A stretch of DNA of 64,000 bases from Paracoccus saliphilus (lineage in GTDB: Bacteria; Pseudomonadota; Alphaproteobacteria; Rhodobacterales; Rhodobacteraceae): the NCBI RefSeq assembly GCF_028553805.1, contig NZ_CP067140.1, positions 4,284,001-4,348,000 of the forward strand, read 5' to 3'. Under the pieces are notes generated by a model. That model was not told where the DNA came from. It ran no database searches and saw only the letters and a program-made list of their open reading frames with translations. Positions 12,249-48,025 of the stretch are shown piece after piece (position 1 is the first letter of the stretch; each line of letters opens with the position of its first letter). Position numbers and translations under genes: made by a program.

Positions 12249-12300
12249 CCGGGGGTTTCACACCCCCGGACCCCCGTGGGATATTTGCATGAAGAAGAAG
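12249..12300 (+). repeat. 3' hairpin repeat, copy A (ACCCCCG..GATATTT..GAAGAAG)
   Basis: CCGGGGG (12249-12255) pairs with CCCCCGG (12263-12269) around a short loop. The tail ACCCCCG, GGGATATTTGCATGAAG and GAAGAAG follows. It starts 52 bases after the aldolase stop and points the same way. Matching tails occur at 15486-15533 (minus) and 41528-41575 (plus). It probably acts as a terminator or 3' RNA element; I recall similar sequences after many Rhodobacteraceae genes. Confidence 0.75.
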
Positions 12301-12404
12301 CGAGCCGTTTTCATCGCAACCCGGTCCAGTATGTTTTTCATACTGGATTTGGCGCGTCGGTTCCGGCTTGGTTGCAAGACCGCTGCTACTTGGCTCGAAT
12401 GTGA

Positions 12405-12562
12405 AGGGAATCTTCGCCCGGCGCGCGTTGCCTGTGTACAGCTTGTGTACGCGCTGTGCACATTCGGTGTACGGATGTCACAGGCAAAAACCTGGCATTT
12501 GCTGGGTAAAGCGCCCCAGCTGTTGCGCATGGTGTCGCACGCAACGCGCGCTGGCGTTGCGT
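12405..12562 (+). repeat. 11-base phased GTGYAC repeat element, copy 1
   Basis: Four GTGYAC hexamers start at 12434, 12445, 12456 and 12467, exactly 11 bases apart; a degenerate fifth unit (GTCAC) is at 12477. To the left is a GC-rich GCGCGCGTTGCC. To the right are GCATTTGCTGGGTAAA and GTTGCG/CGCAAC boxes. The element lies downstream of the aldolase gene, in the same direction, and before the 3' end of convergent gcvP. No convincing reading frame accounts for it. Copies 2 and 3 are at 19208-19375 and 47865-48025. Confidence 0.85.
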
Positions 12563-15426: not shown

Positions 15427-15485
15427 GCGTGTGTTTTGCTCCAAATATCTGCCCTGACCCTGAATTCTGGCCAAGGATCATCCGG

Positions 15486-15533
15486 CTTCTTCTTCATAAA
15501 AATATCCCGGGGGTCCGGGGGCCGCGCCCCCGG
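15486..15533 (-). repeat. 3' hairpin repeat, copy B
   Basis: On the minus strand CCGGGGG-CGCGG-CCCCCGG forms a strong hairpin. ACCCCCGGGATATTTTTATG and GAAGAAG follow. It begins about 14 bases after the gcvH stop and reads the same way. It sits between gcvH and gcvP, so it could partly terminate or process the operon transcript. Confidence 0.75.
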
Positions 15534-17111: not shown

Positions 17112-17272
17112 CCCTCTGTCCTTGCCCTGTCAGGGCGCCTGAGATCATTATCCCTTCGGCGGGCCGGACTACGGCCACTCTCCAGAGTTCTTCACGAAAA
17201 CGGTCCTTTTGCCTGAGAGTTCGCCGGGGCGGCTGCTCCTTCGGCACCGGCTGACGCCGGGTTCTCCCGAAT
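17112..17272 (-). ncRNA. tandem glycine riboswitch upstream of gcvT
   Basis: On the minus strand, aptamer 1 (about 17272-17200) reads CGGGAGAACCCGG, GCCGAAGGAGCA and then CTCTCAGGCAAAAGGACCG. Aptamer 2 (about 17187-17112) reads CTCTGGAGAGTGGCC, GCCGAAGGG and then ATCTCAGGCGCC followed by CAGGGCAAGG. A short linker (17188-17199) joins them. Both carry the GAGA, GAAGG and CTCAGGC elements of glycine aptamers. About 70 bases separate the second aptamer from gcvT. A glycine-sensing ON switch for the cleavage operon is well known in bacteria; the switching mechanism here cannot be read with certainty. Confidence 0.95.
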
Positions 17273-17459
17273 TCCGTGATCCGAGTGCTAGCTGCAGTGC
17301 AGCGGCAAAGCAAGCCTTTTGTCGTAGATCCGATCCGGATGACAAGCGGTTGATCAGGGCGGCCCTTCCGTTGACAAGGCAGTCCGCCTGACCCAGAACC
17401 CTCGCATTTCAATCACGATTGTCGCCAGGTTTACGGCTCGGTCCCCCCAAAGGTGCGTC

Positions 17460-19207: not shown

Positions 19208-19375
19208 GCGCGCCTACCGCGCAACGCCTGCGTGCGCTGCATCTATCATCTCGTGCAACAGGAATGCGATTTACCCAGCAAATGCTGGGGATTCGGCTGT
19301 GACATCCGTGCACAGGATGTGCACAGGGCGTACACAACCTGTACACCGACTGCGCGCGTTGCGCGAGCTTCGGGA
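19208..19375 (-). repeat. 11-base phased GTGYAC repeat element, copy 2
   Basis: Read on the minus strand, the hexamers GTGTAC, GTGTAC, GTGCAC and GTGCAC end at 19346, 19335, 19324 and 19313, exactly 11 bases apart, followed by GGATGTCACAG. Next come CCAGCATTTGCTGG (a palindrome with a two-base centre), GGGTAAATCGC, and a GTTGC/GGCGTTGCG tail. It fills the convergent gap after the sulfotransferase/GT90 gene and is co-oriented with the ABC ATPase gene, beginning some 35-65 bases after its stop. Confidence 0.85.
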
Positions 19376-47864: not shown

Positions 47865-48025
47865 AACGCAACGGCAACGCGCGCCGCCGTTGCGCAGCAA
47901 GCATGATGCGACATGCGAAGTGGCCTGTAATTACTGGGTTTTTGGCTGCACAGCCCGTGCACGGAATGTGCACAACCTGTACACAGAGCGTACACAGGCA
48001 GCGTGCGTTGCGCGGCAAATTTCCT
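47865..48025 (-). repeat. 11-base phased GTGYAC repeat element, copy 3
   Basis: On the minus strand the units GTGTAC, GTGTAC, GTGCAC, GTGCAC and a near-match GTGCAG end at 47995, 47984, 47973, 47962 and 47951, always 11 bases apart. The left flank has GCGCAACGCACGCTGCC. The right has CCAAAAACCCAGTAATTAC, with palindrome GTAATTAC in place of the copy 1/2 motif, and GTTGCG boxes. It follows xth in the same direction. The remaining bases from about 47640 to 47860 show only the flagellin upstream region and no gene. Confidence 0.83.

Follow-up and report, generated by a model that had tools for sequence, protein, structure and literature searches.

Among bacterial interspersed repeats, REP and BIME sequences are numerous, intergenic and mosaic, with many palindromes, and frequently lie between cistrons or on the 3′ side of genes. 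A strict 11-bp repeat is known from other systems, i.e. the tandem repeats occupied by OmpR/PhoB-type regulators and the parC site of plasmid R1. The Pho box and other OmpR/PhoB-type sites consist of head-to-tail 7-mers with 4-bp spacers, giving a repeat of 11 bp, and are operators at promoters; R1 parC is made up of tandem 11-bp direct repeats bound by protein and is present as one site per replicon.

The chromosome of Paracoccus saliphilus (assembly GCF_028553805.1, contig NZ_CP067140.1) carries about 70 scattered copies of an intergenic element of around 150 bases, in which a core motif recurs every 11 bases. With REP and BIME sequences it shares the tens of interspersed intergenic copies, the frequent position 3′ of genes and the palindrome-rich mosaic composition, i.e. 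a central palindrome, GCAAC/GTTGC sites and optional upstream modules of several types, but it differs from them by its 11-bp phased array of directional hexamers. Nor did the transposases of such repeats accompany it: the Y1 family (PF01797, searched alone) was found in five of 61 genomes of the genus and in four of the 27 carriers of the element, i.e. it was absent from 23 of these, and a link to Y1 transposases was therefore rejected. Direct repeats at 11 bp are likewise a feature of OmpR/PhoB-type operators; however, the 7-mer is a different one and 33 of the 70 copies lie between converging genes rather than at promoters. The tandem 11-bp direct repeats of R1 parC are comparable too, but the element is dispersed over some 70 chromosomal sites and was found at none on the second replicon.

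Within the genus, MITEPye1 of Paracoccus yeei has been described as an intergenic sequence of 159 bp without an ORF, present in one to three copies that are nearly identical and show 4-bp duplications as well as terminal repeats of the IS1182 type (PMC11578231). The element resembles it in being intergenic, in occurring in Paracoccus, in its similar length and in having no ORF, but with up to 70 diverged copies and no visible duplications it is set apart by the published description of MITEPye1 (PMC11578231). In the literature searched, which stops short of the 167 sRNAs listed for Paracoccus denitrificans in PMC5107571, we found no earlier account of this large repeat family, whose core keeps a strict 11-bp phase. 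Rfam gave no named family either, in line with the preliminary description, which knew of none. At the gathering threshold, the only Rfam 15 family in the window was a glycine riboswitch elsewhere in it, and a search of nine loci with E values up to 1 returned three sub-threshold matches, none of which was judged to be the element. The riboswitch itself (RF00504, 62.4 bits) lies at 17191–17279 on the minus strand of the window, and the minus-strand genes downstream of it look like putative glycine-cleavage genes. As regards a phage or plasmid origin, blastn with one copy (L086) returned no match in the phage or plasmid collection.

The window, i.e. the whole stretch of DNA analysed, covers 64,000 nt of the forward strand (4,284,001–4,348,000) and contains three copies, here W1, W2 and W3. 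These were matched by a sequence-only model (R1), which was built from 17 copies and run on the own genome (G000, with the chromosome as contig C1); features listed without a search were read from the sequence.

12328..12344, plus strand: palindrome AGTATGTTTTTCATACT of the upstream 'type A', located 106 bp ahead of W1 hexamer 1 (strict pattern)
12415..12561, plus strand: element copy W1, from the 5′ site to the terminal GTTGCG (model R1 match G000:C1:4296417-4296560, and sequence)
12434..12472, plus strand: W1 array of four GTGYAC hexamers with an 11-base step (starts 12434, 12445, 12456 and 12467)
12473..12483, plus strand: W1 end unit GGATGTCACAG, with the hexamer TCACAG in phase (+11)
12491..12506, plus strand: W1 central hairpin CCTGGCATTTGCTGGG (family consensus CCCAGCATTTGCTGGG)
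12521..12528, plus strand: W1 inner TGTTGCGC site
12541..12561, plus strand: W1 3′ site GCAACGCGCGCTGGCGTTGCG, a near-palindrome, with the terminal GTTGCG
19220..19365, minus strand: element copy W2 (model match G000:C1:4303221-4303364)
47868..48014, minus strand: element copy W3 (model match G000:C1:4331868-4332013)

The preliminary description had placed four hexamers of W1 at an 11-base step, and we find them exactly there: GTGTAC at 12434 and 12445, GTGCAC at 12456 and GTGTAC at 12467, followed by GGATGTCACAG. It had given W2 and W3 the same order. This holds for the first three units (two GTGTAC, then GTGCAC) and for the step, but the fourth unit of both is GTGCAC and not GTGTAC as in W1, and both lie on the minus strand, which had not been mentioned. 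Their hexamers are located at 19341–19346, 19330–19335, 19319–19324 and 19308–19313 in W2 (hexamer 1 starting at 19346) and at 47990–47995, 47979–47984, 47968–47973 and 47957–47962 in W3 (starting at 47995). Flanks of the form GCGCAACGC/GTTGCG together with a small palindrome, as noted before, recur in the family, while the 5′ flank of W1 itself reads GGCGCGCGTTGCC.

What had been taken for a family of three proved far larger. Model R1 detected 70 elements on the 4.38-Mb chromosome (E≤4.6e-15) and none on the second replicon (contig 2), and apart from these it gave eight weaker matches with E values from 0.0046 to 0.067, each on the strand opposite to a copy. Since 150 of 1349 first-look candidates were scored by the model, 70 is a lower bound. 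In the 4.62-Mb genome, the pattern GTGYAC-N5-GTGYAC-N5-GTGYAC matched 70 times forward and 51 times in reverse, overlapping matches within an array being counted repeatedly, as opposed to no match for the pattern read backwards (0 versus 121), and a chance origin was rejected. The longest stretch of the chromosome in which no copy was found spans 444 kb (G000 C1 2118110–2561751). According to our own ORF caller, 69 of the 70 elements are covered by no called gene, and one (232117) was flagged as covered. A coding function is improbable, as changes by whole units of 11 would shift any reading frame.

The spacing of the hexamers is almost without exception. In 476,692 bases around the copies, 381 of 382 GTGYAC pairs no more than 40 bases apart were spaced by 11 (199), 22 (125) or 33 (57) bases and the one other by 20, with none at 10 or 12, although pairs within one array depend on one another and GTGCAC pairs enter these figures from both strands. 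The excess of 11 over 10 or 12 that the preliminary description had proposed to look for is thus 199 versus 0. When one mismatch was allowed, adjacent hexamers within elements were 11 bases apart in 236 of 261 cases and never 10 or 12, the other 25 spacings being 2, 5, 9, 13, 18 or 22, and a perfect hexamer out of phase was found in none of the 70 elements.

From 5′ to 3′, the element consists of a GCARCG site, mostly four GTGYAC-RNNYT units, an end unit, the hairpin CCCAGCATTTGCTGGG and GTTGC/GCAAC/GTTGC sites, where the part 3′ of the hairpin comprises a variable stretch, TGTTGCG and then GCAACGCACGCTGCCGTTGC. A recount of all 70 copies gave four units in 56, three in eight, two in one and five in five, some of the last possibly because the 5′ site was taken for a unit. 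Hexamers are directional: among the 275 units found in phase with no more than one mismatch, GTGTAC accounted for 200 and GTGCAC for 61 (261 together), and the mirror form GTACAC did not occur. At unit 2, 65 of the 70 copies have GTGTAC; at unit 3, 37 have GTGCAC and 29 have GTGTAC. The linkers obey RNNYT, although linker 3 ends in G more often than in T. The in-phase end unit reads GTGCAG in 30 copies, GTGCGG in 12, TCACAG in 12, TCACGG in three and otherwise in 13; the form GGATGTCACAG seen in W1 is also present in Roseovarius loci and appears as GGATGTCACGG in one Roseibacterium locus. In the 51 copies in which the distance from end unit to hairpin was measurable by pattern (19 of the 70 were not), it is 8 bp in 49 and 9 bp in two. 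Outside the hexamers the copies are strongly diverged, while hexamers and spacing are nearly invariant.

Upstream of the array, several types of sequence can be distinguished by eye, the best defined being the palindrome AGTATGTTTTTCRTACT. By a strict pattern, this type A palindrome is present in 16 of the 70 copies; hexamer 1 follows at 106 bp in 15 of them and at 105 bp in the other, even though 60 nt of filler share a mean identity of 43% (range 18–85%). Palindromes resembling TTCCATTATGGAA lie upstream of another group of copies (G000 C1 at about 1344249, 2561751, 2663828, 3099475 and 4009431). Along with the size of the family and its frequent placement at the 3′ ends of genes, the fixed position of the type A palindrome goes beyond the preliminary description.

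Element copies often lie just past gene ends. Based on gene contexts from our own ORF caller (dicodon score, not curated), 33 copies are situated between convergent genes and six between divergent ones, while both genes run opposite to the element in 19 and along it in 12. The 3′ side faces the end of a converging gene in 52 of the 70 copies, at a median distance of 21.5 bp and within 60 bp in 44, and in the other 18 a gene starts on this side at a median of 99 bp. As for a partner gene beside the element, reading the ORFs at 10 loci, which lie in other genomes mostly poor in copies, revealed no shared neighbour, and the idea was dropped.

The family extends beyond P. saliphilus. Copies were detected by the model in 27 of 61 Paracoccus genomes, two of which rest solely on matches with E values of 1.5e-4 and 2.7e-4, and copy number is patchy within the genus, from 0 to at least 70; numbers per genome are lower bounds, because 51 candidates per genome were scored with stricter filters (in the own genome 51 versus 70). 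The exact pattern was found in 14 of 37 Paracoccus genomes and in none of 24 other genomes of the class, and family-wide in eight of 394 genomes, the own one among them and nearly every one from a different genus; G309 had nine matches and G316 five, and the reversed control matched once in all 394. In G023, where the model detected 30 copies, the exact pattern found none. A longer pattern, used in a search that may pass over sequences very close to the own genome, returned 19 stretches, with matches in P. aminovorans, P. mutanolyticus, P. limosus, P. albicereus and P. yeei and, in other genera, in Roseovarius aestuariivivens and Roseibacterium persicicum. The 11-base phase is kept where unit 3 became GTGCCG or similar (G023, G462, G005 and G016), and bare arrays without the other parts of the element recur in a few other genera of the Rhodobacteraceae, e.g. 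in G309 and G316. The scan of the genome and of relatives for GTGYAC-N5 repeats suggested in the preliminary description has thus returned a family with its spacing kept, and not three chance matches.

In two of these other genera, bare GTGTAC arrays stand directly before a gene read as soxD (L077 and L069, in G309 and G316). An operator kept by descent at soxD was considered and rejected, since a search of 61 genomes returned 30 other loci in which the 130 nt preceding soxD showed no array by eye.

Presence of the element also differs between species at individual sites. We inspected nine sites against the closest relative as judged by the gcv region (G018, 85%), namely W1, W2 and seven other loci (one with and six without the element; 3264203 was placed and is omitted for length). 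Eight lacked the element and one carried it with identical hexamers and linkers. W2 is absent from the orthologous site, and the W1 site, for which synteny holds on the right side only, retains the type A module without the element. The type A palindrome therefore looks like a separate repeat module, existing without the array in G018. A further interspersed intergenic motif, GGATATTTGCATGAAGAAGAAG or close to it, recurs beside several copies (in the window at 12273–12301 and 15485–15513); the stretch bearing it at 3904776 is absent from G018, and that at 3860396 is present there too. Considering that copies occur in just 27 of 61 genomes of the genus and are missing at eight of nine sites in G018, an essential role is argued against.

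Taken together, the element belongs to an old, high-copy, interspersed intergenic family resembling BIME and REP sequences, and we tentatively favour, at somewhat less than even odds, the reading in which its core offers a putative DNA-binding protein a head-to-tail array of docking sites in helical phase. The 11-bp units TGTGYAC-RNNY would most likely act as double-stranded DNA, on which a putative sequence-specific protein would dock one copy per helical turn and on the same face, much as OmpR/PhoB-type regulators do on their tandem 11-bp repeats, while the end sites (GCARCG..CGCTGC and GTTGC/GCAAC) and the central palindrome may frame the assembly. Just past genes, this assembly, or else the hairpin, could serve to mark the ends of transcription units or to insulate them. 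We prefer this docking array because of the exact phase, with no spacing of 10 or 12 bp in 70 copies despite diverged linkers; the changes in unit number by whole steps of 11 bp; the rigid distances from palindrome to hexamer and from end unit to hairpin over poorly conserved filler; the directional hexamers; and the arrays standing alone in other genera, along with a phase kept in relatives. A converging gene end within 60 bp of so many copies is also consistent with it. On the other side stand the one spacing of 20, the patchy presence that speaks against an essential role, the outcome that neither a binding protein nor a co-occurring gene came to light at the 10 loci read, and a complementarity between linkers 1 and 2 that simple protein docking does not predict. 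The preliminary description had offered proteins on one face of the helix or a phased structure: the former has become the leading reading, while the linker complementarity leaves room for a hairpin. Its view that hexamer and phase are kept but filler is not stands as regards the phase, the linkers changing among the 70 copies and in other species; however, these linkers, bound by RNNYT and complementary between the first two, are not free filler.

It is possible, although we consider it rather doubtful, that the element is transcribed instead, as a 3′ UTR, an intercistronic stretch or a stand-alone RNA, and that the array forms an RNA hairpin stabilizing or ending transcripts, in which hexamer 1 and linker 1 would pair with linker 2 and hexamer 3 and leave hexamer 2 as the loop. 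This reading keeps its place because the linkers follow RNNYT and because, in the own genome, linkers 1 and 2 match each other as complements more often than shuffled sets do: 69 copies gave 186 versus 158.5 pairs (z 4.3, 0 of 1000 shuffles), and an earlier parse gave 191 versus 162.3 (0 of 2000). Linker folding and equivalent positions were tested in the own genome with 67 of the 70 copies under the earlier unit parse, of which the result for linkers 1 and 2 held in the recount, leaving the weighing of the readings as it was. At one position pair of these linkers the purine/pyrimidine odds ratio was 23 (p 5e-8; 38 in the earlier parse), and one column pair reached a z of 12.3 by a corrected G statistic (CG 21, GC 19, TG 9). 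However, the complementarity is equally pronounced for the opposite strand (folding z −4.7 versus −3.4), is strongest at equivalent and not at antiparallel positions, and is not significant overall between linkers 2 and 3 or 3 and 4. The signal is weaker in G019, G014 and G029 (43 of 45 fetched loci used, with L367 possibly on the wrong strand), where folding of linkers 2 and 3 had a z of −4.0 (0 of 300 shuffles) and pair counts z values of 2.0 for linkers 1 and 2 and 2.5 for linkers 2 and 3, and it is not significant in 13 copies of G023 or in 13 of G464, G455, G004 and G026. Since it is weak outside the own genome and not strand-specific, we keep the RNA covariation as an indication for a rival reading and not as proof.

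Folding energies point both ways as well. W1 had a more stable fold than 199 of its 200 shuffled versions (z −3.16), and over all 70 copies the top strand folds better than the bottom strand (mean z −1.99 versus −1.19, p 3e-6; flanks −0.87 and −0.62). The 3′ stem has 24 GU as opposed to five AC cells on the top strand, and in G316 the array apparently lies, by eye, between the stop codon of the preceding gene and soxD. Nevertheless, the strand bias comes from the array alone, the 3′ half showing none (z −0.91 versus −0.81, p 0.35), likewise in G019, G014 and G029, and a bias so confined can be attributed to the repeated GTGYAC motif pairing by itself. The central hairpin is equally without strand bias (GU 19 and AC 16 of 420 cells), RNAalifold on 20 copies found double changes in five of 28 pairs with a covariation term of −0.98, and no Rfam match lay over the elements.

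We regard it as unlikely that the family is a decayed, selfish MITE-like repeat, spread long ago by a transposase, devoid of present function and similar among copies by mere ancestry. The patchy copy number in the genus and the eight empty sites would fit such a history, as would the site at 847014, where G018 seems to retain just the final bases of the element, the kind of remnant that a deletion would leave. However, no target-site duplication or clean insertion boundary was seen by eye at the empty sites among the nine compared, several of which have intergenic flanks too diverged to align. Divergence that is strong outside hexamers held nearly invariant in sequence and spacing, the identity of hexamers and linkers in the only orthologous pair seen, and the rarity of Y1 transposases among carriers all argue against it. 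Finally, a transcription terminator module for the gene ending at the 3′ side is very improbable, as, in spite of that gene's proximity in 44 of 70 copies and of A and T tracts flanking the hairpin on both sides in some relatives (e.g. L228, L240 and L255), four or more U within the seven bases after the hairpin occurred in 15 of 63 copies on that gene's strand and in two of 63 on the other (seven of 70 unscored), and the array would be left unexplained.

Returning to the docking array, its exact helical period leads to a direct prediction, i.e. one protein per turn. It is tempting to speculate further, at long odds, on a so far unrecognized, chromosome-wide nucleoprotein system of the Rhodobacteraceae, in which a putative protein would polymerize on GTGYAC arrays locked in phase where dozens of transcription units end and would thereby organize or insulate the chromosome, the arrays being gained and lost between species. 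Paracoccus has been much studied for denitrification, and yet we did not find this large repeat family described. If the prediction is confirmed, a phased-array class would be added to the bacterial interspersed repeats, and a new DNA-organizing or termination protein may emerge.
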